From assembly GCF_026210795.1 (NCBI RefSeq), contig NC_089430.1:1054001-1118000 (forward strand): a stretch of 64,000 nucleotides of DNA. Direction: 5' to 3'. The notes beneath the pieces were generated by a model. The model was not told the DNA's origin, did no database searches, and worked only from the letters and a program-made list of their open reading frames with translations. Position numbers and translations under genes: made by a program. The stretch's first letter is position 1. Each line of letters starts with the position of its first letter. Shown here one piece after another: positions 15,999-62,580 of the stretch. This stretch comes from Rhizophagus irregularis (taxonomy: Eukaryota > Glomeromycota > Glomeromycetes > Glomerales > Glomeraceae).

Positions 15999-16044
15999 TT
16001 GTTTTCTGTTCCCCTTCCCCGTTCCTGATTATCATTGTGCTCTA

Positions 16045-24467: not shown

Positions 24468-26066
24468 ATGACAGAAAAAAAGCGAAGACAATGGAACGCG
24501 CGTGAAAAAATTGCAATTATTATGTATCATGAGAACGGCCATAGTAAAAGAAAGACAGCAGACAAGTTCAACATTCAAGCAAAGCAACTTTGTGACTGGA
24601 TATCTAAAAAACTACAGTTATTAAAGGTACAGCCGGGTGTAAAACGTTTAAATATAGGAGTAAAACCAAAATATCCAGCTTTAGAAACTGCTCTAGTTAC
24701 CTGGGTTAAAGAAAAAAGAAAAAATCAAAATGCTGTCACACGAAGTATGATTCAAATAAAAGCCCAGACCCTTGCACAACAACGTCAATGGCAAGTTATG
24801 TGTTCTGGTATCAGGTCTTTTAGGTTTAGTAATAAGTGGTTAAATGGTTTCATGAGCTGAAATAAATTGAGTAATCGTCATCGCACTACAATTGCACAAC
24901 GTTTACCTGAAGATTTAATCGAAAAACAGCAATCATTTTTGGCATTCGTCACGTACCGCCGCATACAACATGATTATCCCTTAGCATATATAGGAAACAT
25001 GGATGAAACGCCAGTATCATTTGATCTGCCCACCAATACAACTGTTGATGAACTGGGTGCACGATCAGTTAGCATCCGCACTACAGGTCATGAAAGAACA
25101 AATTTTACAGTTGTATTAACCTGTATGGCAGATGGAACAAAACTTCCCCCACTCATAATTTTCAAACTCAAAAATATTCCACGAGGAAATTTTCCCCCAG
25201 GAGTTATTATTCGAACAAACCAAAAAGGATGGATGAATGAGAATGAGATGCTCTTTTGGATTGAAAATGTATGGGTTAAACGCGAAAGGCTTTCCAATCC
25301 ACAATCATTATTAGTTTTAGATTCATTTTCTGCTCACATCGTGGATTCTGTTAAAAGGCGTTTCATCGAAAAAAAAACTGATATTGCAGTTATTCCTGGA
25401 GGGTTGACATCTCGCCTACAACCTTTGGATGTTTCAGTGAATAAATCATTTAAATCAAAGGTAATAATTATTAATTTTCTCTCCATTTTCTAGGGCGACT
25501 CTATTTTTTTTAAAAAACATTTTATTTTTATTTTCACCTTATAGATGCGAAGAAGATACAATGAGTGGATGGCAGAAACTATAAAAGATTTAACACCAAC
25601 TGGCATCATCAAAAGACCCACTTATGAAACTGTAGCACATTGGGTCAAAGATTCGTGGGAAGCTGTTGATGTTAATTTGATTCGGCGATCCTTTAAATGC
25701 TGTGGCATTTCTAACAATCGTGATGGAACTGAAGATGGCTGGATTTTTAATTATGATCGTCTTGAACAACAAGCAAGCAAACCTAATGATGAAGTAGCAC
25801 CACAATCAGATAAAGAGGACGAAAATACAAGTGATGAGGGATACGAAACTGATACAAGTGAAGAGGAACATGGAACCGACGGAAGTGATGAAGAATTTGG
25901 AAATAATGAAAGTGATGAGGAATCTGAAAATGATGAAAGTGATGAGGAACATGGAAATGAAGAGGATAAATCTGATGAGAGTGAATATGAGGAGGTGGAG
26001 GATGATGGCTATTCGGGTTATTATGATGAACAAGGAACAAATTACGTTAATGTATGGGATGAGTAA
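24468..26066 (+). pseudogene. pogo-like DDE transposase with one intron
   Basis: ATG at 24468. N-terminal helix-turn-helix (NAREKIAIIMYHENGHSKRK), then a CENP-B-type domain. An in-frame TGA at 24858-24860 breaks it, probably from CGA because the family motif there has Arg (RTTIAQRLPED follows). The DDE core has NMDETPV, LLVLDSF and LTSRLQPLDVSVNKSF, giving a DD35D-type triad. A spliceosomal intron at 25461-25544 (GTAATA..TTATAG) joins NKSFKSK to MRRRYNEWM in frame. The C-terminus (25780-26060) is a long Asp/Glu/Ser tract. Total about 505 codons. It would cut and paste the pogo element; the single stop is the only lesion I see. Confidence 0.85.
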
Positions 26067-26222
26067 AATGGGTGGCTTTGATTGTGTAACCATTGCTAAT
26101 TGATGGTTTGTTAATAAAATTTCATTTTACGGCAATTGTTTTTTTATTACAATTAATTATATGAAAGTGTACATATACTGTATACATTGAACTATACAGT
26201 ATATTTATAAATCAAGGTTAAA

Positions 26223-26686
26223 GTCGTCGGGCTGGATGTGGGAGGTGCAAGCACCACCCACCTCCGGGTCTACGACCCGTCGCAGTACCTATATCGCCCC
26301 TACGGGGCTCAGAAATCCCCATATATCCGCCACAATCTGGGACAACATATGGAACAAATATATATACCAAATAACTAGAAAACAATAGAAAAGGAAGGAA
26401 TAATGGATATAATGAGAGGGTTGTCCCGGATGTGGCAGATGTGGCAGATGTTTCAGAAAAAATATGAGAGGACATTCCCCCAGAAAAAGTTTTATTTTTA
26501 CCCCCTCAGATCCGCCACATCCGGAACATCTGGAACAAGTCAGGATTCTGTCTAATAATCTGTTGGAAGCAGTGAGACAGCAAACCAGGTAAATTAGTAG
26601 GTAAGCCCCTAGAAGGTCTATAAAGCCAGTAAGACCAACCCCGTCCCGCTCCCATCAGAAAAAATAAGTAATTGAACAATGGGTAT
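26223..26686 (+). repeat. Polinton B left terminal inverted repeat
   Basis: Starts GTCGTCGGGCTGGATGTGGG; inverse of 40489-40951 and also found at 62620-63490. Long for its element and GC-richer than its surroundings. Frames of 85-140 codons inside it are not supported as genes. Confidence 0.93.
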
Positions 26687-26728
26687 TGAGAATAGAGCAT
26701 ATCCAGATAAGTTTAGAAGACAGTACTA

Positions 26729-27045
26729 ATCCGTCTTCCTCTTTTTTGCCTCCTTAAGGCATTTATCAATACACTGTTTACACGCGTCATCAGAATCTAA
26801 GATTTTCTGTCCAAGTTTTTTGCATTGCCGATTGTAAGCCGTCTGCTGTCTCTTAGCAGCGGTTTCTTTTTTTTCTCCTTAGTCTTCTTCTTGATCACCC
26901 AGTCTATTCCAGTAAAAGTATTCTTATGCATACCACAAATTGTGCAGTCACCATGCAGCCGGTAACGCCCATTTGTAGTCATATCTTGTATTTCACTAGC
27001 CGTCTCAGTTTCCTTCTTGCACTTTAGGCAGTAAAAACGTGTCAT
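26729..27045 (-). pseudogene. Polinton B small zinc-ribbon protein, frameshifted
   Basis: Begins MTRFYCLKCKKETET and contains CTICG, a CX2C...CX2C ribbon like the short Cys-rich domain often found in Polintons and large DNA viruses (DUF5679-like). A 1-base change in the A-rich run near 26877 shifts the frame after ~62 residues; the Polinton A copy (62260-62580) is intact and shows a further CKQCIDKC pair in the tail. Divergent from the integrase, with 44 bp between the two start codons. Confidence 0.7.
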
Positions 27046-27089
27046 TTTAAGATTTGAAGTCTAAAACCATTCCTTTAATTTGTCGTAAT

Positions 27090-28181
27090 ATGTCGCATTT
27101 AGAGAATTATTACAAATACTACAATCTCTCCGGAGTACCAGCACGAATTCTAAAAGGTGAGGAGCACTACAACCTATACAAAAAGCCCCTAAAGGAGAAG
27201 TCAACAGAACGCCCAAAGGTAATTGTATGGAAACCAAATGCAACACATCAGGCAGATCTTGCAGAGATGCCAGTTGACCCCAAAGGATTCCACTATTTTC
27301 TCGTAGTGGTAGAAGTTGCAGGAAAGAGAGTTGATGCAGAACCCCTAAAGGATAAGACTGCAAATAGAGTTCTAAACGGGTTTGTCAAAATCTACAGAAG
27401 AAATCGTATCAAGCCTCCAACACACCGACTAAAGACAGACTCCGGATCAGAATTCACTAACGACCAGGTACGTGATTTTTTCCTGAACAGCCTAGGGGTA
27501 ATGATGAGGTTCGGAGAGCCAGGAAGGCATAAACAGCAATCTTATGCTGAAAGAGCTATCCAAGCCATCCAAGAAACCCTTCTTAAACGAATGGTAGCAC
27601 AGGAGTTGAAAACTGGGGTGACATCCGTAGAATGGTCAGAAGATTTCCATAATATAGTGAATAAAGTAAATGAACTCTGGCAGAGAAATCCCCCAGACAT
27701 TCCGACAGAGTCACCCAAAGTGTCAAAAAAGACGGATCTCCTCTCTGAAGGAGCACGTGTCAGAGTCAAGTTAGATGAACCTATTTCTGTACTTGATAAC
27801 AAACTTCACGGAAAATTCCATACAGGAGACATAAGATGGAACCCAAACATTCGTGTAATCAAAAAAATGATACTCTCACCTGAACAGCCTCCTACATATC
27901 TTCTTAACGGACCACATGGTCGATTAGGTGTATCCAGATGTGCATATACCCGAAAGGAATTGCAAGTAGTTCCTATTAATGAAAAGCCTCCACCTGACTC
28001 TGTGATAAGAGGACAACCTGAAAGATTTGTTCTTGAGCAGATACTTCGGCATCGCATTAGAAAAGGTCAAGACCAGTATTTGGTTAAGTGGGAGCGCTAT
28101 CCAGACACTGAGGCTACTTGGGAACCTGCTGACCAGTTGAAGGAGGATGTCCCTGACTTAATTCGCAAATTTTGGGAATAA
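27090..28181 (+). CDS. Polinton B rve integrase with C-terminal chromodomain
   Basis: Complete, 363 aa from ATG at 27090. The retroviral-type integrase core has catalytic Asp in HQADLAEMP (~56), Asp in KTDSGSEF (~117) and Glu in SYAERAIQ (~154). The chromodomain at ~312-350 (LEQILRHR, YLVKWERYP, TWEPADQL) keeps its aromatic cage-like tryptophans and would bind methylated histone tails, steering integration to heterochromatin (family knowledge; use here is inference). It catalyses insertion of the linear element into the genome. This is the only intact integrase in the window; the Polinton A copy has three stops. I do not see an HHCC zinc finger at the N-terminus. Confidence 0.92.
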   Translation: MSHLENYYKYYNLSGVPARILKGEEHYNLYKKPLKEKSTERPKVIVWKPNATHQADLAEMPVDPKGFHYFLVVVEVAGKRVDAEPLKDKTANRVLNGFVKIYRRNRIKPPTHRLKTDSGSEFTNDQVRDFFLNSLGVMMRFGEPGRHKQQSYAERAIQAIQETLLKRMVAQELKTGVTSVEWSEDFHNIVNKVNELWQRNPPDIPTESPKVSKKTDLLSEGARVRVKLDEPISVLDNKLHGKFHTGDIRWNPNIRVIKKMILSPEQPPTYLLNGPHGRLGVSRCAYTRKELQVVPINEKPPPDSVIRGQPERFVLEQILRHRIRKGQDQYLVKWERYPDTEATWEPADQLKEDVPDLIRKFWE

Positions 28182-28205
28182 AAAAAATAGAAAAATTAAA
28201 GGGTC

Positions 28206-28955
28206 TTATTTTTTATCCCCTCGATTAGCATCAGGAACTATCAGGATAAAAACATTCTTCCCATCACAGGTAAAGGCTATATGTTCACGTGATTCATGGA
28301 CATCATAATTGTAACGTTTCAGACACGTTCGGCTTAACCCAATTTCCCTATGCTTGTAACCACTTAAGACTGCAAGGTCCTCAGTGATAGCATAATCAGG
28401 GGTAAGTTTGATTGTCACTCCCTTTACCATGCCAAATGTCCTACCTGTTCCTGAAGTACCAGATATGTTGTATGTAATACTCTTGTCGATATCCAACCCT
28501 AATTCCTCAGCAGCTTCTCTCTGAATAAAAGACGCATTAGCACAAGTGTCTGCTAAACACTGAATTGCTATCCCATTAACCTCCCCATCCAGTGCTAAAA
28601 GATCTTTAGTATTCTCTAAACGAGCTATGTCAATATCCATAGGATCGTCTACCCTGATATCTTCTTCTTGTTCCTCCTCAACTAGGTCCTCCGGAATCTC
28701 TGTGACTTTTCTAGCAGACAATAACTCCTCCTGAAGAATCTCACGGAGTAATTTCCTAAAGTCTGCAGACCTTAACAGGCTTAATAAGTCATTCTTAGTA
28801 ACAGCTTTTGCAGGTGTAGACTTACTACCAGTAACTTTCACAGGAATCTTAACAGGGGTTGCTTTGCCTTTCAATGGCACACTAGAAGAGCTAACTGCTG
28901 TCTTATTTGGGGACGACTTAAGAAGTTTTGAGATACTTGAACCTACTTTTTTTTT
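28206..28955 (-). CDS. Polinton B retropepsin-like protease, -1 frame after Gag
   Basis: This frame has no good ATG of its own before the catalytic region and continues upstream to the nine-A run at 28955-28947 that ends Gag, so it is probably made by -1 frameshifting as Gag-Pro. A basic Ser/Lys/Pro linker comes first, then a helical part (DLLSLLRSADFRKLLREIL) and an acidic spacer. The aspartic protease fold follows: CLADTCANASF with the catalytic Asp, a central hydrophobic flap-like region, and IGLSRTCLKRYNYDVH matching the retroelement pattern ILGxxWLxxxNPxID. DTCA replaces the usual DT/SGA. It should process the Gag-like protein. Confidence 0.75.
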   Translation of the reverse strand, partial: KKKVGSSISKLLKSSPNKTAVSSSSVPLKGKATPVKIPVKVTGSKSTPAKAVTKNDLLSLLRSADFRKLLREILQEELLSARKVTEIPEDLVEEEQEEDIRVDDPMDIDIARLENTKDLLALDGEVNGIAIQCLADTCANASFIQREAAEELGLDIDKSITYNISGTSGTGRTFGMVKGVTIKLTPDYAITEDLAVLSGYKHREIGLSRTCLKRYNYDVHESREHIAFTCDGKNVFILIVPDANRGDKK

Positions 28956-30373
28956 GACCCAACACGAACCATATAGACATCACCATCTTTTTCTTTCAAT
29001 TCTACCTTTTCACCAAAACTCGCAGTATCAATGTCCATAGCATCATCATTAAGATCGAGGTTTCTCATTGCTCGGGCCAAATCCAGATCATCACGTCTAT
29101 CTTTAGCCTTCTGAAGTTGTTTTGTAAGTATTTTAGACGTCCCACGTTTATATCCCATAATAAGATCAATAGCATTTTGATGATCATCCAAAGTCCACTC
29201 AGGAGCATCAGGGTCATCACCAACATCATGATCTACATAACCATCATCCCAATCAGGATCCTGAGGATCCTGAACAACACGTCTCTGTGGTTTTGGTCGA
29301 ACAGGTTTAATCTGCTGTCTATAGACTGGTGGATTACGAACTGGCCGAGCCTGTAATTGTTTAAATTGCACCTGAAAATTCTTGGTAAGTTCCTCAGCTT
29401 GAGCCTTAAGTAACTCTTGTAATTGTTCTTGAGTAACCCCAGATGACTTTGATGTCAGTACGACAGGTTCCTGTTTTCCTAACAGAGGTTGAGTTACATC
29501 ACTGTAATCTGCTTGAAGTCGTCGATTTCTATCTTGTAACCCCAAGCGCATTTCAGCCCTTCTCCGTTCTAAATTTCTCAGATGTTTAACCAAGTCATCA
29601 GGATTAAGATTACTAAACCTTTCTGCTTCAAAAATATTATCAGCCGAAAGACCTCTAAAGAACTGGTCGATAATAAGATCATCAGTTAGTTTTAGTAATT
29701 TTCCAGCTCTCTTTACAGTTCTATAAAATGCATCGACTGGCTCATTTTCCTGATAAAGACTGTTAAAACGGATACGTTTCTTTTCATCTAAAATAGTTGG
29801 AAATTGTGTTCTAAGCCAATAAAGCGCCTGGTTAGGTTTAATACCTGAAAAAACTATAAGATGATTATTAGCAGCAGCAACACCAGCATCTGCAGTAGCT
29901 GGAGCAACTCTATCTGTCGGACGAGCACCAGCTCTTTCCCAAGCTTTATTTCCACCTATTAAATCATGAGTAGGAATAAATGTTGCTCTAATAGTTGCTA
30001 ATGCATTATTTATATCTCTTGAATAGATTTGTGCTTCAGACCCATTTACATAGGTACCTGCATTTGGTCCTCCTGCACCTTCTGGTATTACTAATGCTAC
30101 AAAAGCAGCTAAATTAGCTCCACCTCTTGAAGTGATACCAGAAAGTTCCCAATTTTTTCCTGTAATTTCTCGATCAAACCATTCAGTTGCTTCACCAGTC
30201 ATGCAGCTTCTAAGTATACCCATAGCTCTTTTCCAAGACTCTGGTGGCCCTCCAGCAGCATATGGGTTAAGATTAATAGTATCAAGATAACCCATATAAA
30301 GCCTAACAAATGTATCAATATCATCAATAGCTTTACCCTCAAAAATCGGCAATTCTATCGCAGTGGTAGCCAT
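28943..30373 (-). CDS. Polinton B Gag-like capsid candidate (476 aa)
   Basis: Complete 476-aa frame. The N-terminal half starts with LPIFEG and has a helical region with RSCMTGEATEWFD. The second half (NQALYWLRTQF, FNSLYQENEPVDAFYR, DDLIIDQFFRGLS, DLVKHLRNLE) follows the pattern of the Ty3/gypsy-type retrotransposon Gag family. The tail is Gln/Pro/Arg-rich and then acidic. No CCHC knuckle is seen. Its ATG overlaps the last codons of the coiled-coil gene by 19 nt. The local Ty3-like retrotransposon Gag (53856-53596) starts in the same style (IPIFYG, LQWFE). Presence at the same place in both Polintons argues that it is an element gene and the probable shell protein. Confidence 0.72.
   Translation of the reverse strand: MATTAIELPIFEGKAIDDIDTFVRLYMGYLDTINLNPYAAGGPPESWKRAMGILRSCMTGEATEWFDREITGKNWELSGITSRGGANLAAFVALVIPEGAGGPNAGTYVNGSEAQIYSRDINNALATIRATFIPTHDLIGGNKAWERAGARPTDRVAPATADAGVAAANNHLIVFSGIKPNQALYWLRTQFPTILDEKKRIRFNSLYQENEPVDAFYRTVKRAGKLLKLTDDLIIDQFFRGLSADNIFEAERFSNLNPDDLVKHLRNLERRRAEMRLGLQDRNRRLQADYSDVTQPLLGKQEPVVLTSKSSGVTQEQLQELLKAQAEELTKNFQVQFKQLQARPVRNPPVYRQQIKPVRPKPQRRVVQDPQDPDWDDGYVDHDVGDDPDAPEWTLDDHQNAIDLIMGYKRGTSKILTKQLQKAKDRRDDLDLARAMRNLDLNDDAMDIDTASFGEKVELKEKDGDVYMVRVGSKKK
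28947..28955 (-). promoter_or_regulatory. Candidate -1 frameshift site, Gag-Pro (Polinton B)
   Basis: Nine consecutive A (minus strand) directly before the Gag stop TAG (28945-28943). Slipping back one base turns the stop into Lys-Val-Gly and opens the protease frame. The same A9-G-TAG arrangement is kept in Polinton A (60349-60361). Confidence 0.65.
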
Positions 30374-31152
30374 ATCGTCTCTAGTGGATTGTTTAAAAGA
30401 GGTGGAGGAGGGTTCAATTGTCTAATTCGAAACCATTGTACCTGAATTCTAAGAGCAGCTATCTGTTGGAAAAGTCTATTTCTAAGTCTCCCTAATGTCT
30501 GAATCCCAAAACGCACCCTATTATTAGCATGTGCTAGCTGTACATTAACCTGTCCAAGTTGCACATTAACCAATACAAGTTGTCCTCCAGTTCGAGTAGC
30601 CCTCAGCCGCCAATGATTTAAAAGGATATTACCACGATTCACAGCATTTTGAGCCTCATTACGATCCCTTACTGCTTGAGTATAATCTGCTTGTAATACA
30701 TTACGTTCATGTCATGCCTGATTACGTTCACCTATAGCCTGTCGACGAAGCTCTACCATAGTATCATAATCTCTTTGCAGGTTATGGTTTTCTTCTATGA
30801 AATTATCATTGGCAGCACGTATAATAACTAATTGACATTCTAAATTAGTAAACGTTTCATCAAATGCATTTATCTTACCTTGTGCAAAAACTAACAAATC
30901 TTTTGTAATACCAAGTTCTTCATGTTTTGCTTTACAGCGATACATTAATATATTAATAATATGTTTGATTTGATTATTTGCCTCCTGTATCTCTGAATCA
31001 ACAGTTAAACGACCCCTGGTAGTCAATAAATTTGCATGAGCCTTTAGTATTCTAACTAATTCATCATCGTCTTTTTCATTGACCAAGTGTGCAGGAGGCG
31101 GTCCAGTAGGTTCTGAAGGAGTATAAACTGGAATTGGTGTTGATGTCGACAT
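30355..31152 (-). pseudogene. Polinton B coiled-coil protein, one nonsense
   Basis: 266-codon frame with a single in-frame TGA near 30714 where Polinton A has CGA. The N-terminus is Pro-rich (PSEPTGPPPAH); after it come long helices with heptads (DNFIEENHNLQRDYDTMVEL) and an Arg-rich end. Start codons of this gene and the ATPase are 31 bp apart and divergent. It could be a scaffold or an N-terminal partner of the Gag-like protein, with which it overlaps. Confidence 0.75.
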
Positions 31153-31183
31153 AGTATTTAAACTAAGTTAGAATAAAATTCAA

Positions 31184-32407
31184 ATGGATCTTTATATATA
31201 CAATTTGGACGAGTATACGACCGACTCAAGACAAGGCAATGAGTTTGCTCCATCATGGCCCTTTCGATTAGCTGTAGCAGGTAGCTCAGACTCAGGTAAG
31301 ACAACTATGATCATTAATTTGTTAATGGGTGACAAGAAAGCAAAAGAGGATGGTAATCGGTATGTACTATGTGATGCAGTACTTTTAGTTGGCAGATATC
31401 TTGACGAGCTGAAGTGGGCAGTTGTACATGATTTTTTCGAAGAGGAAAAGATCCCATTCACTGCAGTAACCCATAGTGAGATTTCAGAGATTGACTCCTT
31501 CGACCCTACTCAAGCTACTGTGGTAATCTTCGAGGATCTGATGGATGCACCTAAAAAAATCCAGGATCTCATCACTGGTTACTTTACACATGGACGACAC
31601 AAAAATATTTCATGTATTTATGTAGCCCAAAGATTCTTTGCCATTCCTAAGGCTATTCGATAAAATGTTAACTACATCTCACTGCATGGAGGTCATGGGA
31701 GCCTTACAAATACCAAGAGAATCATCCGCCTATATACAGAAGAATCAGAGTCATTAGCACCAGTAATTGATGATCTTACTCTGCAACGTGAATTTGTAGT
31801 GTTTGATCTTAGACGGTCCAAAAGTAATCCACTGTCCATTCGAGTAAGATGGGATACTAGTCTCAGTTCTATCACAGAGCAATCTCAGTTCAATCCTAGT
31901 TCGATCTCAGTTCAATCTCAGTTTGATCCAAGCTTGAACCCAGTTCGATCTCAGTCTGAACCCAGTTCAATCACAGTTCGATCCAAGTTTAGTCCCTATA
32001 GTCAGAAAGCTGTATTTGAAGCAAAAAAAGGTGGACACTTGATTGAATTTGCTCGGGTATTTCCATCCCCTAAAGAACGTCAACATTTACTTGTACCTGG
32101 TGTCTTAGCCAAGAATGCAGATACCTGGATTAAATATGTCTTTCGGGAAGCTTATGGACTCTCTGGTAAGACCCTAGGAGCTGACTTTCAGGATTTCTTA
32201 GCAAAAGTACAGGGTAGGACTGCAAAGACTGAAACTCTGAAAACTGAGAATGTGAAGGAGTTATTCTCCCGATATGAAGCCCTGAAGTCTAGTCGCCCTC
32301 TGGATAATAAACAAATAATAGAAGGTATTGAAGTCCTTCTACAGATCTTTTCTAAGAGCCACATGGACCGTCGAGCATTACAAGTAGGGATTAATAGTAT
32401 CTTGTGA
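31184..32407 (+). pseudogene. Polinton B packaging-type ATPase, one nonsense
   Basis: 408-codon frame with one in-frame TAA at 31661-31663 (GAA in Polinton A). Walker A GSSDSGKTT at residues ~34-42, Walker B-like ATVVIFEDL near 109, then YFTHGRHKNISCIYVAQ before the stop, all typical of the A32/FtsK-HerA packaging ATPases. The second half has a Ser/Gln/Pro repeat tract and a helical end. This copy shows the gene without insertions and so defines the target sites of the pogo element and hAT#2 in Polinton A. Its 3' end overlaps the convergent 186-aa gene by 17 bp. Confidence 0.85.
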
Positions 32408-32951
32408 GAATATCAAGTAATTCGTCTGCAGAAGCTTTAAGAATCATAGCACTTTTTTTACGGCCTTCAAAGTCAATCCTTAACATCTTAGCCTTCAACC
32501 CTATTGCTCCTAAAGCACGAGAAGCAAAGTTCTTAGTCATTGGATTACTTATATGATTTACATAGTTCTCATAGAATGTAGTGAAAGGCTCGTCAATACC
32601 ATCTGGATATGTATCCCTTAGAAATTGATATAAAGCAATTTCTCCACTGTCATAACCTATGGCTATAAGCTGTTCGAGAAGCCACTTCCTAATATCTTCA
32701 TATGGCTCTCCATCCATAATATTCATATCCAGTTTTTGTGTAAACAATTGTGTAAAGTCCACATTACTTCCCCGACGAATGATCTGAACTAACTTATCCC
32801 TAGCAAGTCCCAAGGCTTGTAAAGGTTCACTCTCGTCGCCAATCTTCTTTATAATCTGTCTATACAACACGCTGGATAATCCTCTATATGCTGTTTTTGG
32901 AGTGATTACTCCACAGTTTTGGCATTGGTTTATTACGATTGATGTTGACAT
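32391..32951 (-). CDS. Polinton B 186-aa orphan (intact)
   Basis: Complete 186-codon frame, the intact counterpart of 22745-23304. CQNCG near the start, otherwise helical with conserved blocks EPYEDIRKWLLEQL and FTTFYENYVNHI. No known domain recognised. It is transcribed in line with the upstream NPxTGR gene (45-bp gap) and convergent with the ATPase. Confidence 0.8.
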   Translation of the reverse strand: MSTSIVINQCQNCGVITPKTAYRGLSSVLYRQIIKKIGDESEPLQALGLARDKLVQIIRRGSNVDFTQLFTQKLDMNIMDGEPYEDIRKWLLEQLIAIGYDSGEIALYQFLRDTYPDGIDEPFTTFYENYVNHISNPMTKNFASRALGAIGLKAKMLRIDFEGRKKSAMILKASADELLDILTRYY

Positions 32952-32996
32952 GGCTATCTTTCTTTATGTAAAAAAGAATTATTCAAAATTAAGTAA

Positions 32997-33577
32997 CTAT
33001 TCAGAGCAGTCCTTGCACAACTTGTCCGTTAAGTCACTTGGGCTTACAGGCATGAGACATTCCCTACACAACTCAATATTTAGCTCTGCAAGTCTCGGGT
33101 ATGGTCCTCCAAAGTTCGTGGACGACCGGAAGGACCGGAGGAAGGTGTCCCGTTAGTCATATCTTGCTGTAAGATAAAATCATCATATTCATCTTGGTCA
33201 GCCTGAATAGCGGCCCTGATTTGTTGTATATCATTGAAAGTTAACCGCTGCCCATCAAGATTTTCCTCATTATAGCGTGTTTCATTGATGATTTCCTCTA
33301 TAAGCGCCTCTTCTTCATAATGGACAAGGTAGTAATCCTCAACTACCTCATAGTCACTCTCAATCAGTCTATGATATGTTCTAGTACCACGTCGAACATA
33401 ACGTCCTGTATCTGTATTTAAATATACAGGTTGCTCTTCAGGTGGAGGTGCAGTTTGTCTACGGACAAGCCTTCCATCAATATAATCATGGGATTCCATA
33501 ACTATTCAATTAAAGGTATCTCCACCGATAATAATTGGACGTCCAGTTATAGGGTTAGCTATATAAGGGTAAGACAT
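32997..33577 (-). pseudogene. Polinton B NPxTGR-motif/zinc-ribbon protein
   Basis: Same gene as 22122-22699. It has TGA near 33510 where Polinton A has CGA, and a frameshift near 33110 before the C-terminal ribbon (LCRECL...LCKDCSE). The central part (33499-33080) is open and Tyr/Glu-rich. Comparison of the two copies gives the real length and shows the C-terminal CX2C pairs. Confidence 0.65.
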
Positions 33578-33644
33578 GTCTTTTTTCTGTACGTGTCTAC
33601 ATACCTAATAGTTTTCTTCAATTTACAATAACCAAGTGACACGG

Positions 33645-34075
33645 TCATCAGTCCTTATTAAAAAATGCAAGGATACCTGATGATAAGGTTACATGGTCAT
33701 CACTGGTAAAAAAATGATTTATCCTACACATATCTTACACATATTGGGTACTCAAAATGTAGAAAATCATACACAAATAATACACATATCATACACATAT
33801 CGGGTACTAATATATATATCATACATATATCAGGTACCTGATAGGTATACTATATATATAAGTACCCGATATGTGTATGATATGTGTATTATTTGTGTAT
33901 GATTTTCTACATTTTGAGTACCCGATATATATAAGATATGTGTAGGATATGTGTAGAATAGACCATTTTTTTACCAGTGCATCAATCCTTGTCGAAAAAA
34001 TGCAAGGATACCTGATGATAAGGTTACATGGTCATCAGTCCTTGTCAAGAAATATGAGGATACCCGATAAATAAG
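33645..34075 (-). repeat. Polinton B internal ~52-bp direct repeats
   Basis: Three degenerate units (33645-33700 and 33980-34075) with TGCAAGGATACCTGATGATA and GGTTACATGGTCATCA, split by a CACTA-type MITE. Same position as the Polinton A array. Confidence 0.85.
33701..33979. mobile_element. Palindromic CACTA-type MITE, 279 bp
   Basis: Ends CACTGGTAAAAAAATG and inverse; 3-bp TSD CAT (33698-33700, 33980-33982). CACTG termini with 3-bp duplication fit the CACTA/EnSpm superfamily. Almost the whole length is one inverted repeat rich in CACATATC and GGGTAC words, so it can fold into one hairpin. Confidence 0.85.
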
Positions 34076-34791: not shown

Positions 34792-35262
34792 TTATGCAAG
34801 AAGTTCTGCTAAGGTTTTCTCAGCCTCATTCATAGTGACAGCTCGCTTTGGGGGACCTGTTAATGAGTCCTTAGTTACATTATAATACAACTCGAAGAGG
34901 GCCTCAAGTTTGTCTAAAAGAGCTTGTTTATTCTTGTATGATTCATGAATCTTTGCTATCTTAGCAGTATATGCTGCATTATCTGGGAAGAGTTTTCTGG
35001 CCACGAACTTCACATATGATACAGGAGACTTTGCTGTCTGGATTCTCTTGATATACTTCACATGATCCTGGACAAGGTAGCTGGTTTTGCTAAACCCAGA
35101 TACTAATGCGACTACTATAGTGTCTTTCAATGCACGGATAATCTTGAGGACAGTTTCATCAGAAACAATGGTGAACTGATTGTGTGATGCATTATAAATA
35201 ACTTTATCACTAATGCTGTCAGTGCTGTTAATAATGCTTGCTAATTCGGTATATGTTGACAT
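34792..35262 (-). CDS. Polinton B 156-aa conserved orphan
   Basis: Complete 156-codon frame matching 12627-13097, with only scattered replacements. Both copies of this gene being open, while nearly every other gene is broken in one copy, points to a short target or to constraint. No domain recognised. Confidence 0.8.
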   Translation of the reverse strand: MSTYTELASIINSTDSISDKVIYNASHNQFTIVSDETVLKIIRALKDTIVVALVSGFSKTSYLVQDHVKYIKRIQTAKSPVSYVKFVARKLFPDNAAYTAKIAKIHESYKNKQALLDKLEALFELYYNVTKDSLTGPPKRAVTMNEAEKTLAELLA

Positions 35263-35375
35263 GATTCCTTATACTTTTTTGTACTTTGTAATAAATAGGA
35301 ATCTTCAAATTGACTTTACATTCAAGCAAGAAAAAATATATATACCTACTGTAAATTCAACCGCATTCTTGGCAA

Positions 35376-37256
35376 TCATGTCCAGATAACCTTGTTTGCA
35401 TTTTTCACATGGCAGTATCCTGCGGTTTCAAACTTGAGAGCTTTCAATGCTTTGGATGCATTTTCTGGACAAGTGATAAGTGTAGGACTACTCGGCTGTT
35501 CCTCTAGAATAAATCCATCTGTATGGATGCGTCGTACTTTATCCTTATATGGTTCTAATAACTCTGAAGTCGTCTTCCGTCCATGTGCTAATAAGAATGG
35601 AGTGATCCTAGGATACTCACCCTTGAAGGGACTACCTGGGTTTGTAAACTGGAATCGCCACTGGTCAGATCCTACTGGTACGATGGAGTCAAGTGTGTGG
35701 CCTTCTGGAAACTTGAATGGATCTGTTTGATCTGTGGTGAGTGTCTTGTAATTGCGTTTCCTCTGGCAGAGTGCTCCCCATAGTGTATTGAGAACTCTTT
35801 TTGCAACACGACCGGCCACGCCACCCTGGTTCTTTATATTGAAGAGAAAGTGGACATACTCACCAAATATTACAGTCCCAGGAATTCTTGCTTCTCTGTC
35901 ATATATCAAGGCATTTGGCTTTACATCCTGGATTAACTGTATATCGAGTTCAAGTTTCTTTGCTCGTTGTAAGTCAATGAATGTATAGACTCCCCTCTTA
36001 TTCTGTCGGAAGAGAATGTCATTACCACTTACCTTGCCCTTGGGCGCTCCCTGGGAGCTAGCACGAAATAATCCATACAAGGCATAACCTCTATGGTCTA
36101 CAAAGTCTTTGAGTATTTGAAACTTACCTTGTCAGATTGGAAAGTTTGCATTTGATTGCTGAATACTTGGATACAAACTTGTCACGTCGTATTGCCTTCC
36201 ATAGCCCTTCCATTCATTGTCTGCCCAGATAAGACCTCCCATCATTGCATCACTTATCCACTCTGCTTCAACTGGGTCAAGAGGATCATTGGCTGGAACC
36301 CCTACACTAAACCGTTCAAAAAGCCAGAGTGCAGTTCTCTTGTACGACCAGTTGTGGTAAGATAAGTCGATTCCTAGACCGAACTTCTTTGTAGCCTGTA
36401 GGAAGGAATCCCGCTCTTCATGGATCCTCTGGTATGTTTCCTCAAGTGTTTCATATATTCCAGTTTTACAATTCTTCTCGATAGGGATGAAGGAGTAACT
36501 ATCAGAGTTCTTACCTTTCTGAAACTGTCCAACTGTAAGAGACTTAACTGTCTTACCATTGTATATTGTTACTACATTATTAACCCCATCTTCACGATAA
36601 ACAAAGGGAGACTTTCGTTTTCTATCTAATTTGCTAGGGTGGAGTCTTCCGGGATTCAGTGCAAGAGAGTAGTGGCCTTCAGACAGGATAAGTATTGCAC
36701 GTCTGTCAGATTTGCTCTTGGAAATTTGAGTGGAATCCCCTACAATATTAAGTGCAAGGCTTCCTGCAAGTTGTTCAACCTTATCCATATATGAGACTGG
36801 AACTGGAGCATCACGATTGAGACCTAATGCCTTTTTGATATACTCGGGCTTTTCGATTGACTTTGGCATTTTAGAGAATGTGCCGTAGATATATTTCAGG
36901 CATTCATACAGGCAATCATTTAGCTCCCCGTTGCAACCCCCTGCAACCGGTGGGGCATCTCTCACATAAATTATGAATCGTTCAAAATAATCAGGGTCTG
37001 CGTCATCCGGTAGTTGTGCTTCGTCGTAGTGGTCCAAGAGTGAGAAAAGGCTGGCTGGTTGGTTTCCTGATGTCCATCCACCAGGTTTCCAGTTTTCATA
37101 GGGGAGCAGAATCTGAAATTTATGTGTCGGATACCAGGATTGGAGTCGCTGTCCAAGTCTTGCTATTGCTCCTCTGGAAAATCTTGCGCCTGAATACTGT
37201 AATTCTTTGATATCCGGTCTTGTAGGTAAAGCACGGACAATCTCTGAATAAACCAT
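35376..37256 (-). pseudogene. Polinton B PolB, one nonsense
   Basis: 627-codon frame, interrupted only by TGA at 36134-36132, just after motif A (CGA in Polinton A). Visible are motif A DVTSLYPSI, motif B-like KRVLNTLWGALCQRK and motif C-like IHTDGF, where only one Asp of the usual DTD is present. It is shorter than typical Polinton PolB proteins and I see no clear 3'-5' exonuclease motifs. The N-terminal third carries NDCLYECL and GHYSLAL, a possible OTU-like Cys/His pair. It has 27 bases near 36045-36075 absent from Polinton A. Confidence 0.82.
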
Positions 37257-37339
37257 TTGATGTATTTATAAATTGTGTTCAGTTGTAATATAGGTTTTTT
37301 ATACAAAAAATATAAGATAACTAAGAAGTGCTTATCTTA

Positions 37340-39882
37340 TTAAAAGGAGTCAATCTTGCTGCATACACGATCAAGATCCTCTTCATCCCAGTCGTCGACA
37401 ATTCCATTGGCGGCTTCCCATTCACGTTCCATATCAGTTTTTGGACGTTCCTCTAGGATTTCTCGTGCTTTACCCTTATTCATCTTCATAGTTTCATAAC
37501 CAGAGGTGGTAGGAATAATCTCGGCATCACGATCCTCCTTGTATACTCTTATTAGATCTGCGAGTTCTTTACGGCTATGTGTTTTAGGTAAGTTCCCATT
37601 ATATTCGATCTAGTCCTTGAAGCGGTCTACTACCTCCCTAAGGTAATACTGGTACTCGTCCTCAATACGTGTTGTGGGACATTCCTCTACTTCAAACGCG
37701 AGTATTTCCCAGTCATAGTCGTCTGACACGTCTTGGTACTTAGCCCATAAATCCTTACCTGTATTGTAGAGATCATTGAAGACCTGGTCCTTTGAATTCT
37801 TGACCCATGGCTTACGATCCCATCGGTGCCTTTCATGCCAAGTCCAGTGTGCTCGAGTACCTTCCTTTGGTTCAGGGTCCCAGTCAACTTCTAGTTCTGT
37901 GTCGGGTTTTGGGATAGGTTGCTCTTCAGGAGCCGGTTCTGGGTCAGGCTTAGTGACAGATGCAGAAAATTCTGCAGGAGACTCAGGTTGTTGTTCAGGA
38001 GCTGGGTTCACAGTTGTAAAATCTGAGTCAGATAGCAAGTCATTTAAAACGTCGTAGTCATCATCAGCTTTATATGCAGGTTCCTCAGCAGGCGGCTCAT
38101 TTTCTTGATCAGGTTCCTCATCAGATAGATAACAGTCCGAAAAGCTATCTATAGGTTCATCAGTATCAGATTCTATAGGAGCTGGAGATTCCTCAGGAAT
38201 AGGATCCTCATTGATGACAGGTGCGGGTTTTACCTTCAAGCAATCGGGCTTAAGTGGTACTGGTGGTGGAGTCTTTTTGGAAACTGGTTTCTTTTCAATA
38301 GGCTTCTTCTTGACAGGAGCGGGTTTTTCCTCAGCAGGTTTCTCTTGTACGTCTTGTGGATTATTAGCAGGAATGCTATATATATTTGCCAAGAACTTTT
38401 CTAAGGCTTTGGGATCAGATGCGGGCTTCTCGGGAGTTTCTACATCTATTCCTTCTATATTGATTTCATCTGTTTCGTGGATCCATTTTTTGGTGAGAAA
38501 CTTTTTGTAAAGGTCCTCCCTAGATATGCTGTAAACTCGTGGTGTTGCCTTACCTACACGTATTTTTCTGCTATTTATACCCAACTCATTTGATAGGATT
38601 CTAGAAGCGTTTATCTTTGATAGGGGTGTAATGCAATGAGTTTCACAGTATGAAGTATATACCCTATAAAATTCTTGAACAGGTAGGTCGGTTATATGAT
38701 TTTTTACTATGAGGTAAATGTCCTTTATGAATTGAAATAGGGGTGGGAGAGTTGATATGATGTGATCCTGCTTAGATGTTGTTATAGGTGGTGGATTCCC
38801 ATTGAAGTCTGGGTAAACGTCTGCAATGGCTCTCAAGTAAGCATAGAATGCCTCACTGGCACCTGGGTATTTCATAGCGTCACTGAGTTTCTTAAAGTAG
38901 TTGAGGTCTCCCTTGCGGGATGGTGACACATCCAAGAACACTGTGCGCCTATCGTCATTCTCCACTCTGAGAGCATTTTCATTAGTGAGTACAATGGTGG
39001 ATATAAAGTTTTTGTAATGTGTTGGCGTCTTGTATTTTTCATGGATTTCCATTATGTCACCTGTTACCTTATCCTTCAATGATCGATACAGATTATTCCA
39101 CTGGCTTTTTTCTGTAGGCATTTCCTTGAGGAGGAGAAGAACCTTACCTTGTAATTGCCCATTGAAACTTCCAAGAATCGTTTGAGGATCACTGGTCTTA
39201 TAAACAAGTTGAGTACCTAAGACACTACGTTGAATGAAATCTGTTATAATACTTTTACCCCAACCCTGTCCAGATTTCAGGTAGAGAATCGAATACATTT
39301 TCCTTCCAGCTGCCACACTGGCCAACCACTTTATGATATACTCAGTAAGATTCCAATCGCCTGAACACCAGATATCCTGAATGTGAGAGAAATAAATTTA
39401 ACTGCGAGGTGGGTTGTAGATTCAAAAGTGGATATCGGACGCAGGATATGGAGAAATCCTGGGAAGATATTGAGATAAAGTTGGCCACCTAGTTTAAAGA
39501 TACGGGATTTTTGAGGGTCACAGGTAGCTACACATACAGTACTATATTCGATCATAAACCATTTGTTGATATTAAATTCAACCTTTTGTGAAGGACCCTG
39601 TTCAGATTGTGTGTAAAAGACTTTGGTAATTGGACGGATAAGTTTATTAATATTTTTATCAGGGATGTGCTCGAGGTTTTTGATTTCTGATCGCCACATG
39701 AAGACTCCATGTGGGTTGGAGCAGGGGATAAAGTAACTGCAAAGATAACCTTTAGCTTGATTGAGATCCCTCATATTCTTTGCAGCGTTAATGAGCCGTT
39801 TAAGCTCATCAATACTAAAAGCCTTCTTCTGTTCACCGAACTTGGGGATAACTTGAGCTTGAGTGCTAGTTTGGGCAGTCAT
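37340..39882 (-). pseudogene. Polinton B superfamily 3 helicase
   Basis: Counterpart of 1397-3955. A 1-base deletion near 39380 and a TAG at 37612-37610 (TGG in Polinton A) break it; 39325-37610 is a single open stretch that joins the helicase core (SGQGWGKS, LLLLKEM) to the acidic Pro-rich tail, proving that the two belong to one protein. The tail ends in a conserved folded-looking block rich in Trp and Tyr. Confidence 0.82.
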
Positions 39883-39897
39883 TTTTTGTTCTATCAA

Positions 39898-40459: not shown

Positions 40460-40488
40460 GTTATCTGTCCTTATAGGTTACTTATGGT

Positions 40489-40951
40489 ATACCCATTGTT
40501 CAATTACTTATTTTTTCTGACGGGGGCGGGACGGGGTTGGTCTTACTGGCTTTATAGACCTTCTAGGGGCTTACCTACTAATTTACCTGGTTTGCTGTCT
40601 CACTACTTCCAACAGATTATTAGACGGAATCCTGACTTGTTCCAGATGTTCCGGATGTGGCGGATCTGGGGGGTAAAAATAAAACTTTTTCTGGGGAGAT
40701 GTCCTCTCATATTTTTTCTGAAACATCTGCCACATCTGCCACATCCGGGACAACCCTCTCATTATATCCGTTATTCCTTCCTTTTCTATTGTTTTCTAGT
40801 TATTTGGTATATATATTTGTTCCATATGTTGTCCCAGATTGTGGCGGATATATGGGGATTCCTGAGCCCCGTAGGGGCGATATAGGTATTGCGACGGGTC
40901 GTAGACCTGGAGGTGGGTGGTGCTTGCACCTCCCACATCCAGCCCGACGAC
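40489..40951 (-). repeat. Polinton B right terminal inverted repeat
   Basis: Inverse of 26223-26686 with about ten differences; ends ...CCCGACGAC followed by TTAAA. Confidence 0.93.
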
Positions 40952-41286
40952 TTAAAACACATGGAATAAAAATTTGCTTGTAAACATTTTTTATTAGTCC
41001 GAAGTGTAACAAAGGACTATATACTATTCGTATCGGTTTCACAAATGTTTGTTGTACATCCGGCACGTGATGATGTGCGATCGGTTTCCTTTTCCTAGTT
41101 AGTATGAAGAATTTTTATTAGTAATTATATACCGGTATTTGATTAGTACCGGGTACTATTCAAAATCGGATTTTGATTAGTACCGGGGTACTATTCAGAA
41201 ATACCCGAATGTAAACTTGAATAATACACAGGTACTATTTATGGGGGGTACTATTTGAGGGGGGTACTGTATGCAGCGCTATACGG
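40952..41286. repeat. pogo right terminal and subterminal repeats
   Basis: Non-coding remainder of the pogo element. From ~41145 it holds six or so GGTACTATT / GGGGTACTA words, ending CTGTATGCAGCGCTATACGG. Confidence 0.8.
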
Positions 41287-57378: not shown

Positions 57379-57705
57379 AGATATTATTAAATTTTAATTT
57401 TTATTATATTTTTAATCGTGTATTTTATTAGTTTAATATTAAATATTATAAAATAAATATTTACATACAAAAATTCATATTGTCTTTAATCTTTATTCTT
57501 ATAAATTGTTTAAATGCCGAAACTCTAATTAAATCATATAGAAAGTATTGCCGAAACGCTGAAATAGTTTCGGCAAGTTACGGCAGTTTCGCGATTTTGA
57601 TAGGTTTCGCAGTTTTGGCATTTCTTGATGATTTCGCGAAACTAGTTTTGGCAGTTTCACGTACGCCATTCTGCCGAAACCCTCTAGTTTCGGCAAGCAA
57701 CCTTA
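57379..57705. repeat. hAT#2 right subterminal region
   Basis: AT-rich then GTTTCGGC-word-rich terminal region, ending TTTCGGCAAGCAACCTTA; matches 5726-6050 in reverse. Confidence 0.85.
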
Positions 57706-57713
57706 GTCGTCCA
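57706..57713. repeat. hAT#2 target-site duplication, right copy
   Basis: GTCGTCCA, identical to 41305-41312; the ATPase frame resumes here. Confidence 0.93.
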
Positions 57714-58120
57714 TGTGTAAAGTAACCAGTGATGAGATCCTGGATTTTTTTAGGTGCATCTATCAGATCCTCAAAGATTACTACAGTAGCTTGAGTAGAG
57801 TCAAAGGAGTCAATCTTTGGAATCTCACTATGGGTTACTGCAGTGAATGGGATCTTCTCCTCTTCGAAAAAATCATGTACAACTGCCCACTTCGGCTCGT
57901 CAAGATATCTGCCAACTAAAAGTACTGCATCACATAGTACATACCGATTACCATCCTCCTTTGCCTTCTTGTCACCCATTAACAAGTTAATGATCATAGT
58001 TGTTTTACCTGAGTCTGAGCTACCTGCTACGGCTAATCGAAAGGGCCATGATGGAGCAAACTCATTGCCTTGTCTTGAGTCAGTCGTGTACTCATCCAAA
58101 TTGTATACATAAAGATCCAT

Positions 58121-58151: not shown

Positions 58152-58949
58152 ATGTCAACATCAACACCAATTCCAGTTTATACTCCTTCAGAACCTACTG
58201 GACCGCCTCCTGCACACTTGACCAATGAAGAAAATGATGATGAATTAGTTAGAATACTTAAGGCTCATGCAAATTTATTGACTACCAGGGGTCATTTAAC
58301 TGTTGATTCAGAGATACAGGAGGCAAATAATCAAATCAAACATATTATTAATATATTAATGTATCGCTGTAAAGCAAAACATAAAGAACTTGGTATTACA
58401 AAAGATTTGTTAGTTTTTGCACAAGGTAAGATAAATGCATTTGATGATATGTTTACTAATTTAGAACGTCAATTAGTTATTATACGTGCTGCCAATGATA
58501 ATTTCATAGAAGAAAACCATAACCTGCAAAGAGATTATGATACTATGGTAGAGCTTCATCGACGGGCTATAGGTGAACGTAATCAGGCACGACATGAACG
58601 TAATGTATTACAAGCAGATTATACTCAAGCAGTAAGGGATCGTAATGAGGCTCAAAATGCTGTGAATTGTGGTAATATCCTTCTAAATCATTGGCGGCTG
58701 AGGGCTACTCGGACTGGAGGACAACTTGTATTGACTAATGTGCAACTTGGACAGGTTAATGCACAGCTAGCATATGCTAATAATAGGGTGCGTTTTGGGA
58801 TTCAGACATTAGGGAGACTTAGGAATAGACTTTTCCAACAGATAGCTGCTCTTAGAATTCAGGTACAATGGTTTCGAATTAGACAATTGAACCCTCCTCC
58901 ACCTCTTTTAAACAATCCACTAGAGACGATATGGCTACCACTGCGATAG
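58152..58949 (+). CDS. Polinton A coiled-coil protein (intact)
   Basis: Complete 265-aa frame. Pro-rich N-terminus, then long amphipathic helices (residues ~35-190) with repeated HERN/RDRNEAQNA-type segments, an Asn/Gln-rich part and a basic end (TLGRLRNRLFQQ, VQWFRIRQ). Its stop overlaps the Gag-like start codon by 19 nt, suggesting coupled translation. Candidate scaffold or structural partner of the Gag-like protein. Confidence 0.78.
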   Translation: MSTSTPIPVYTPSEPTGPPPAHLTNEENDDELVRILKAHANLLTTRGHLTVDSEIQEANNQIKHIINILMYRCKAKHKELGITKDLLVFAQGKINAFDDMFTNLERQLVIIRAANDNFIEENHNLQRDYDTMVELHRRAIGERNQARHERNVLQADYTQAVRDRNEAQNAVNCGNILLNHWRLRATRTGGQLVLTNVQLGQVNAQLAYANNRVRFGIQTLGRLRNRLFQQIAALRIQVQWFRIRQLNPPPPLLNNPLETIWLPLR

Positions 58950-60361: not shown

Positions 60362-61098
60362 GTTTGAGTATCTCAAAACTTCTTAAGTCGTCCCCAAATA
60401 AGACAGCAGTTAGCTCTTCTAGTGTGCCCTTAAAAGGCAAAGCAACCCCTGTTAAGATTCCTGTGAAAGTTACTGGTAGTAAGTCTACACCTGCAAAAGC
60501 TGTTACTAAGAATGACTTATTAAGCCTATTAAGGTCTGCAGACTTTAGGAAATTACTCCGTGAGATTCTTTAGGAGGAGATGATGTCTGCTAGAAAAGTC
60601 ACAGAGATTTCAGATGACTTAACTGAGGAGGAACAAGAAGAGGATATCAGGAAATACGATCCTATGGATATTGATATAGCTCGTTTGGAAAATATTAAAG
60701 ATTTATTAGCACTTAATGGGGAGGTTAATGGGATAGCAATTCAGTGTTTAGCAGACACTTGTGCTAATGCGTCTTTTATTCAGAGAGAAGCTGCTGAGGA
60801 ATTAGGGTTGGATATCAACAAGAGTATTACATACAACATATCTGGTGCTTCAGTAACAGATAGGACATTCGGCATGGTAAAGGGAGTGTTAATCAAACTT
60901 ATTCTTGATTATGCTATCACTGAGGATCTTGCAGTTTTAGATGGATACAAGCATAGGGAAATTGGATTGAGCCGGACGTGTCTGAAACGTTACAATTATG
61001 ATGTCCATGAATCACGTGAACATGTCGCCCTTACCTGTGATGGGAAGAATGTTTTTATCCCAATAGTTCTTGATGTTAATCGAGGAGACAAAAAATAA
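60358..61098 (+). pseudogene. Polinton A retropepsin-like protease, one nonsense
   Basis: -1 frame relative to Gag. TAG at 60571-60573 replaces CAG of Polinton B; otherwise open to 61098. CLADTCANASF is unchanged, so the atypical DTCA is a family feature and not a mutation of one copy. The later GLSRTCLKRYNYDVH block is also kept. Confidence 0.72.
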
Positions 61099-61133: not shown

Positions 61134-62215
61134 AATTTGCGAATTAAGTCAGGGACATCCTCCTTCAACTGGTTAGCAGGTTCCCAAGTAGCCTCAGTAT
61201 CTGGGTATCACTCCCACTTAACCAAATACTGGTCTTGACCTTTTCTAATGCGATGCCGAAGTATCTGCTCAGGAACAAATCTTTCAGGTTGTCCTCTTAT
61301 CACAGAATCAGGTGGAGGCTTTTCATTAATAGGAACTACTTGCAATTCCTTTCAGGTATATGCACATCTGGATACACCTAATCGACCATGTGGTCCGTTA
61401 AGAAGATATGTAGGAGGTTGTTCGGGTGAAAGTATCATTTTTTTGATTACACGAATGTTTGGGTTCCATCTTATGTCTTCTGTATGGAATTTTCCATGAA
61501 GTTTGTTACCAAGTACAGAAATAGGTTCATCTAACTTGACTATGACACGTGTTCCTTCAGAGAGGAGATCCGTCTTTTTTGATACTTTAGGTGACCCTGT
61601 CGGAATGTCTGGGGGATTTCTCTGCCAGAGTTCATTTACTTTACTCACTATATTATGGAAATCTTCTGACCATTCCACGGATGTCACCCCAGTTTTCAAC
61701 TCTTGTGCAACCATTCGTTTTAAGAGAGGTTCTTGGATTGCTTGGATGGCTCGTTCGGCATATGACTGCTATTTATGTCTACCTGGTTCGCCGAACCTCA
61801 TCATTACCCCTAGGCTGTTCAGGAAAAAATCACATACCTGGTCGTTAATGAATTCTGATCCGGAGTCCGTCTCCAGTCGGTGTGTTGGAGGCTTGATACG
61901 ATTTCTTCTGTAGATTTTGACAAACCCGTTTAGAACTCTATTTGCAGTCTTATCCTTTAGGGGTTCTGCATCGACTCTCTTTCCTGCAACTTCCACCACT
62001 ACAAGGAAATAGTGGAATCCTTTGGGGTCAACTGGCATCTCTGCAAGATCTGCCTGGTGTGTTGCATTTGGTTTCCATACAATTACCTTTGGGCATTCTG
62101 TTGACTTTTCCTTTAAGGGCTTTTTGTATAGGTTGTAGTGCTCTTCACCTTTTAGAATTCGTGCTGATACTTTGGATAGACTGTAGTACTTGTAGTAATT
62201 TTCTAATTGTGACAT
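61134..62215 (-). pseudogene. Polinton A integrase with chromodomain, three nonsense
   Basis: Counterpart of 27090-28181. Stops at 61771-61769 (CAG in B), 61354-61352 (CGA in B) and 61210-61208. The catalytic Asp residues (HQADLAEMP, ETDSGSEF) and Glu (SYAERAIQ) are visible, as is the chromodomain remnant. Divergent from the zinc-ribbon gene, with a 44-bp gap. Confidence 0.85.
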
Positions 62216-62259
62216 ATTATGACAAATTAAAGGAAAGATTTCAGACTTCAAATCTCAAG

Positions 62260-62580
62260 ATGACACGATTTTACTGTCTAAAGTGCAAGAAGGAAACTGA
62301 GACTGCTAGTGAAATACAAGATATGACTACAAATGGGCGTTACCTGCTGCATGGTGACTGCACAATTTGTGGTATGCATAAGAATACTTTTACTGGAATA
62401 GACTGGGTAATCAAAAAGAAAACTAAGGAGAAAAAGAAAGAAACCGCTGCTAAGAGACATCAGACGGTTTACAATTGGCAATGCAAAAAACTTGGACAGA
62501 AAATCTTAGATTCTGATGACGCGTGTAAACAGTGTATTGATAAATGCCTTAAGGAGGCAAAAAAGAGGAAGACGAATTAG
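62260..62580 (+). CDS. Polinton A small zinc-ribbon protein (intact)
   Basis: Complete 106-aa frame. FYCLKCKKETET and CTICGMHK form a CX2C...CX2C ribbon like DUF5679-type domains of Polintons and large DNA viruses; the tail has CKKLG and CKQCIDKC and is Lys-rich. Adjacent to the right inverted repeat. Probably DNA- or protein-binding; the exact role is unknown. Confidence 0.72.
   Translation: MTRFYCLKCKKETETASEIQDMTTNGRYLLHGDCTICGMHKNTFTGIDWVIKKKTKEKKKETAAKRHQTVYNWQCKKLGQKILDSDDACKQCIDKCLKEAKKRKTN

Follow-up and report, generated by a model that had tools for sequence, protein, structure and literature searches.

Can a Polinton, a mobile DNA element, build its shell from a retroelement Gag? 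The question is raised by a stretch of 64,000 nucleotides of the arbuscular mycorrhizal fungus Rhizophagus irregularis (NCBI RefSeq assembly GCF_026210795.1, contig NC_089430.1, positions 1,054,001 to 1,118,000 of the forward strand), hereafter the window, whose positions are counted from its first letter. The window holds two Polintons. A preliminary description had noted that both carry a coiled-coil gene, a Gag-like gene and a retropepsin-like protease gene in the same order between ATPase and integrase, and our analysis confirms this. It is nearly certain that Gag and its protease (Pro) belong to these Polintons as an integral component under selection. In addition, we consider it somewhat probable that Gag is the shell into which the ATPase packages linear DNA.

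A Gag-Protease Block between Integrase and Packaging ATPase

The first window element occupies positions 26223-40951 (14.7 kb); its terminal inverted repeats (TIRs) are 97% alike, and the target-site duplication (TSD) TTAAA stands on both sides. Gag, Pro and the coiled-coil gene lie exactly where they had been placed, between an integrase on the plus strand (27054-28181) and an ATPase that starts at 31184 on the same strand. The element comprises the following features.

26218..26222, no strand: left TSD, TTAAA
26223..26686, plus strand: left TIR, beginning GTCGTCGG, 97.4% identical to the right end
27054..28181, plus strand: retrovirus-type integrase with C-terminal chromodomain (rve 2.9e-9, Chromo 8.9e-17)
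28206..28880, minus strand: Pro, retropepsin-like protease, active-site motif DTC (Asp_protease_2 6.3e-8), in the -1 frame relative to Gag
28947..28955, minus strand: Gag/Pro junction, a run of nine A followed by G TAG, a likely frameshift or slippage site
28943..30373, minus strand: Gag, predicted retroviral-type capsid protein without CCHC zinc knuckle
30712..31152, minus strand: coiled-coil gene, upstream of Gag, frame broken (146 of 265 aa)
31184..31663, plus strand: A32-type packaging ATPase, N-terminal part (Pox_A32 6.3e-9), with one internal TAA
31799..32407, plus strand: C-terminal part of the same ATPase gene, an extension not seen in three other families aligned
32391..32951, minus strand: p186, conserved protein with a weak Gag_p24_C match (0.0037, below cut-off)
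33080..33499, minus strand: p139, conserved protein, corresponding to p202 in copy A1
34792..35262, minus strand: p156, conserved protein
35376..37256, minus strand: family B DNA polymerase (PolB), in two pieces (35376-36080, 36132-37256)
37610..39897, minus strand: primase-helicase (37610-39325, 39331-39897; DUF5906 7.5e-17)
40489..40951, minus strand: right TIR
40952..40956, no strand: right TSD, TTAAA

The Block Is a Fixed Part of the Element

Is the block a constant component or a peculiarity of one locus? The second window copy (57578-62580) has the gene order of the first, and several genes are broken in both.

57578..58120, minus strand: ATPase, N-terminal part
58152..58949, plus strand: coiled-coil gene, 265 aa
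58931..60232, plus strand: Gag, interrupted (58931-59740, 59753-60232)
60580..61098, plus strand: protease, partial frame
61352..62251, minus strand: integrase, interrupted (61352-61714, 61769-62251)
62251..62580, plus strand: DUF5679 zinc-ribbon gene (DUF5679 9.5e-18)

The 146.7-Mb genome, assembled in 32 contigs, contains at least 91 matches to the window Gag, more than chance would explain, and we examined ten further copies over stretches of 20 kb. Five belong to the window's own subfamily, A, with Gags 96-97% identical; in the other five, of subfamily B, Gag identity is about 51%. ATPase, coiled coil, Gag, Pro and integrase follow one another in identical order and orientation in all ten, extending to other copies of the genome what had been seen in two; PolB stands at the expected place in seven. 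Copy A1 measures 14.3 kb, has TIRs that are 99.8% alike, and contains open frames (stop to stop) for the helicase (865 aa; DUF5906 1.4e-17 in Pfam), PolB (629 aa; DNA_pol_B_2 1.7e-7), ATPase (411 aa), coiled coil (270 aa), Gag (492 aa), Pro (257 aa) and integrase (376 aa), plus p156, p202 and p186. The ATPase frame is 411 aa in other copies too, the intact 407-aa ATPase protein matching Pox_A32 at 3.1e-9, and the DUF5679 zinc ribbon is present in the second window copy and in A1. TIRs of 460-571 bp, 94.7-100% alike, delimit eight of the nine elements tried (none were found in B1), and a 5-bp TSD flanks seven of the eight elements with ends found (none in B5).

Gypsy-like elements occur within polintoviruses (PMC4061559), and it is conceivable that Gag-Pro represents a Ty3/gypsy element nested in the Polinton, or that it is adjacent by chance. 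This explanation is at odds with the same position in 10 of 10 copies, the placement of Gag on the strand opposite to integrase, the purifying selection described below, and the presence of the same linkage in another family. Moreover, the frames scanned contain no reverse transcriptase or RNase H family, the Gag block is not flanked by direct repeats of at least 60 nt, and the element ends in inverted repeats, not in long terminal repeats (LTRs). The sequence refutes the explanation as far as tested, and we give it next to no credence.

Several side observations concern the composition of the copies and their surroundings. The helicase in L013 and L015 (copies A3 and A4) is 53-54% identical to that of the window and the adjoining PolB 95-98%, which suggests an exchange of the helicase module between elements. 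Coiled coil and Gag form a single frame in L038 (58-2532), a locus of another family, and two overlapping frames in subfamilies A and B, the second in -1 (in the window, 58152-58949 and the frame from 58931); public protein models appear to link the two via introns. Directly left of the first window element, at 24468-26066, frames resemble a pogo-type transposase by eye, and a 1906-aa frame at 15946-21666, between pieces matching the Polinton, looks, again by eye, like a LINE-type protein.

A Conserved Gag/Pro Junction

How are Gag and Pro connected? Gag closes with a run of A, a G and a stop codon, which is TAG in subfamily A, TAA in subfamily B and TGA in two family C loci; with nine A in the run, the open frame of Pro is shifted by -1 against that of Gag. 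Among 15 distinct A/B copies the run has nine A in ten, eight in four and seven in one, single copies being subject to possible homopolymer assembly errors; in the copy with seven, Gag and Pro share one frame of 737 aa. Because runs of at least eight A occur at 0.21 per kb and strand across these regions, the place of the run at the junction is not due to chance. The site might serve frameshifting or transcript slippage, or the run might simply drift in length; its conservation argues for one of the former two over drift. Judging from these frames, the two genes appear to be translated as a unit. Both family C loci (L040, L041) have another run of 8-9 A, here followed by GTGA, that closes the Pro frame and leads toward a further short frame.

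The identification of Pro as retropepsin-like is borne out by its Asp_protease_2 match (6.3e-8), with the canonical DTG/DSG replaced by DTC in all 76 A/B proteins matched and at 12 of 12 places in the 11 A/B sequences scanned. Family C proteases carry DTGS (16), DPGA (5), DSAA (5), or DSGA, DTSS and DSCS (1 each), and L041 has NSGA. By motif, then, one class retains the ordinary retropepsin site, whose sequence is changed in other classes.

Purifying Selection on Gag and Pro

Ratios of nonsynonymous to synonymous changes (dN/dS) were calculated by the Nei-Gojobori method for all copies other than B2, skipping frames broken below 60% of their length (the coiled coil of the window copy and the integrase of A3). 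Compared with four B copies, A1 yields a dN/dS of 0.38-0.40 in Gag, 0.15-0.17 in Pro and 0.56-0.68 in the coiled coil, and values of 0.07-0.10 and 0.06-0.07 in ATPase and integrase, respectively; compared with three B copies, it yields 0.07-0.08 in PolB and 0.18-0.21 in the helicase. Gag and Pro are thus under purifying selection between subfamilies. Along Gag, identity between A1 and B4 per 40-residue block is 28-68% for residues 1-320, 78-90% for residues 321-440 and 47% for residues 441-476.

The coiled coil and the capsid part diverge fastest between subfamilies, as in conflicts, and a yeast restriction factor is derived from Ty1' (PMC10951436). Conceivably, Gag-Pro might be cargo and not the element's capsid: a weapon that co-assembles with, and spoils, the Gag of competing retroelements or viruses. 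We hold this to be improbable, given that the protease and the Gag/Pro junction are kept across families and that no other capsid was recognised; a weapon would not stand in for the capsid.

A Predicted Capsid Fold and No Recognisable Jelly Roll

Does Gag fold like a capsid? Structure models of Gag from two diverged families, that of the window and family C, matched almost solely retroviral or Gag-derived capsids in Foldseek, PEG10, PNMA2 and Arc being among the nearest solved structures. Three unrelated proteins stand among the 50 matches listed for the first model. Structure prediction for the 476-aa Gag therefore led to capsids and gave no jelly-roll fold, and the protein is predicted to fold like a retroviral capsid. 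By sequence search, the window Gag is homologous to the family C Gag; its sole Pfam match is Retrotrans_gag at 0.039, below cut-off, and its comparison with the sequences of solved structures returned a single chance-level match. A profile of 35 Gags found no match among the capsid chains of solved structures, and one of 31 Gags reached Ddi1 proteases and Ty3 Gag-Pol solely via its protease part. We infer that the module may be Ty3-like, as had been suggested, also when that term is taken strictly. A profile comparison of two Gag alignments was set aside as evidence because the alignments share members. p186, the protein with the weak Gag_p24_C match, gave no match to the Gag profile.

In the frames scanned with Pfam, neither a jelly-roll family nor an adenain-type cysteine protease was recognised, in agreement with the earlier statement that no frame was seen to resemble a double jelly-roll major capsid or adenain-type protease. 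Copy A1 contains no unassigned frame longer than 202 aa and thus none sized for the usual major capsid protein. p186, p139 and p156, considered with regard to a single jelly-roll penton as well, have no Pfam match above the curated cut-off (of p202, the 139-aa part was scanned), and a jelly roll that has diverged too far might in principle reside in p202, p186 or p156. These proteins comprise only 156-202 codons, which is short for a double jelly roll, and all longer frames in the 14.3-kb copy are assigned; we regard a hidden jelly roll as very improbable.

Gag in Other Polinton Families and Other Fungi

Homologous Gags occur in three further Polinton families of the genome. Neighbourhoods were counted among the matches listed, which are best-scored candidates, so that absences in them are weak: we used 91 of 91 window-Gag matches, 88 of 88 Pox_A32 matches, 75 of 142 L038-capsid matches (the 67 left out being copies already among the window-Gag matches and second pieces), 61 of 150 further ATPase matches (setting aside presumed window-family ATPases and some fragments), 74 of 109 PolB matches (without second pieces) and nine PolB-integrase pairs. 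The L038 capsid domain has at least 142 matches in the genome. In L038 and L037, coiled coil and Gag stand head to head with a different integrase and a shorter ATPase, with Pro downstream. In L042, a Gag copy of the 49-58% class adjoins integrase and a DNA_pol_B_2 polymerase (4.9e-12), and L042-type polymerases have Gag within 12 kb in 36 of 37 cases, 13 of them at 2683-2685 bp. A listed Gag lies within 6 kb of 56 of the 88 Pox_A32 matches and within 15 kb of 26 of the 61 further ATPases, which are mostly of other families. At least one Gag-less Pox_A32 call is false, as C25:3088424 belongs to a locus (L033) that does contain Gag. By eye, L037:2539-4185 (C-terminal part), L038:3552-4217 and L039:2511-3092 share a zinc-finger/endonuclease-looking sequence, in frames fused with or adjoining integrase; none was seen in the window family.

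What might Gag particles contain? They might carry RNA or element proteins, as do Arc and PEG10, in which case the element would spread as a transposon and the ATPase would have another role. CCHC knuckles bind RNA in retroviral Gags, and they are present in 32 of 56 family C proteins; furthermore, one Gag class lacks a detected ATPase nearby. The window family, however, is knuckle-free (0 of 120 Gag relatives listed, of 191 matches), and its ATPase is strongly constrained. We consider RNA or protein cargo unlikely.

Relatives of the window Gag were sought among proteins sharing words with the query and of similar length (120 listed of 191 matches). They are found in R. irregularis (up to 97% identity over part of the protein, 95% over 96% of its length), R. 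clarus, R. diaphanus, Entrophospora, Paraglomus brasilianum, Diversispora epigaea and Cetraspora pellucida, and among unnamed metagenome proteins; a match in Glomus cerebriforme spans only a quarter of the query. No Gag or ATPase relative was confirmed in IMG/VR viral contigs. Since the relatives, known as proteins, occur in distant arbuscular mycorrhizal fungi, a capsid swap would be old.

Discussion

The proposal that this lineage exchanged its capsid module is supported by our findings: Gag-Pro is fixed and selected, a capsid fold is predicted in two families, and no jelly-roll family was recognised in the frames scanned. A packaging-type ATPase that is kept and strongly constrained is most simply read as still filling a capsid, and that capsid as Gag. 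For packaging of element DNA in a Gag shell, we see about an even chance.

Several observations weigh against a Gag shell. All Foldseek E-values for the Gag models are 0.001 or higher, and the first model is weak (pLDDT 57.5). The motif DTC in place of DTG/DSG makes activity of the window-family protease doubtful, and within subfamily A dN/dS is less clear, at 0.12-0.50 for Gag and 0.09-0.80 for Pro, with few changes to count. Among the matches listed, the 49-58% Gag class has an A32 ATPase within 10 kb in 0 of 38 cases and within 20 kb in 2 of 38, so that not every family links Gag to an ATPase. In L039, ATPase and integrase are present and no Gag stands within the 9 kb examined, the nearest listed Gag being 12.6 kb away. 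A second PolB family (C16:53651-60783, C9:1348539-1355675 and C7:1233189-1240324, among others) has, within 15 kb, a listed Gag in 2 of 37 cases and a listed ATPase in 2 of 37. The capsid and protease profiles PF04451, PF21738 and PF00770 gave no match in the 146.7-Mb genome, and control genomes were silent too, so that these scans are no proof of absence. Finally, among the Polintons surveyed by Krupovic et al., the capsid gene is intact in 46 of 72 and split in 13; nine of the remaining 13, capsid-less ones also lack ATPase and protease, and 4 of the 13 have retained ATPase or protease (PMC4028283), so that a retained ATPase is no proof of a capsid. The same survey finds the A32-type packaging ATPase in 83% of Polinton/Maverick members (PMC4028283).

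The second PolB family may represent Polintons that use a different capsid or have no capsid at all. Its integrase lies 4.86-4.88 kb from PolB in six of nine PolB-integrase pairs, and a spacing of about 4.87 kb leaves room for a capsid gene; a genome scan with Asp_protease_2 was filled by other elements and is uninformative on this family. Might such a Polinton, or another virus, supply a jelly-roll capsid in trans, which the ATPase of a satellite-like window element would serve? The silence of PF04451 and PF21738, qualified by the equally silent controls, and the scarcity of A32 ATPases near the second family (2 of 37 listed) speak against it, and we judge this arrangement quite improbable.

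How might a Polinton with a Gag shell propagate? We envision that PolB would copy the element with a protein primer and that Gag would assemble, together with a minor Gag-Pro product arising through -1 frameshifting or transcript slippage on the A run. The ATPase would then drive DNA into the Gag shell, and integrase would insert it at a new site. By a volume estimate with assumed radii, 14.3 kb of DNA fills 0.46 of a sphere of 20-nm inner radius; size does not forbid packaging, and the estimate says nothing more. The complete scenario would make this a new class of virus-like DNA element: an ancient, self-synthesising Polinton, widespread among arbuscular mycorrhizal fungi, that copies its linear DNA from a protein primer, has the ATPase package it into a Gag shell with slippage-made Gag-Pro, and never passes through reverse transcription. 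To this scenario we assign somewhat less than an even chance.

With Polintons (Mavericks) the element shares PolB, a retrovirus-type integrase with chromodomain, an A32-type ATPase, long TIRs, a length of 14-15 kb and the DUF5679 zinc ribbon. It differs in its Gag-Pro block, with jelly-roll major capsid, penton and adenain-type protease unrecognised, and in its 5-bp target duplication, which is usually 6 bp in Polintons. Like Ty3/gypsy elements and retroviruses, it has the order capsid, (zinc knuckle), protease, a frame change at an A run and a retrovirus-type integrase, and a 5-bp target duplication is also known from Ty3. Unlike them, it shows no reverse transcriptase, RNase H or LTR, places integrase on the opposite strand, and has a DNA polymerase and a packaging-type ATPase instead. 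Bidnaviruses likewise join a different capsid module to a Polinton PolB, but theirs is a parvovirus jelly roll, whereas here it is a retroelement Gag (PMC4061559). PEG10, PNMA2 and Arc are Gags domesticated as host genes; the present Gag belongs to a mobile DNA element.

Mavericks reportedly belong to the recently expanded elements of R. irregularis, some copies being low in methylation (PMC8647823), and are included in a curated library (PMC11075540). Gag in Mavericks goes unmentioned in passages of both papers, and the word 'Gag' is absent from the main text of a natural history of jelly-roll DNA viruses (PMC11071308). The preliminary description knew of no comparable system, and a literature search of titles and abstracts, covering few subscription papers and no supplements, likewise found no description of a Gag-bearing Polinton.

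The realms, the deepest divisions among viruses, are defined in part by capsid folds: the jelly roll in the DNA lineage to which Polintons belong, Gag in the reverse-transcribing one. If our reading is true, a Polinton that retained its genes for replication and packaging yet runs on a Gag capsid would show that capsids can be exchanged across realms, and it would be, as far as we know, the first case of a Gag around DNA that is never reverse-transcribed.

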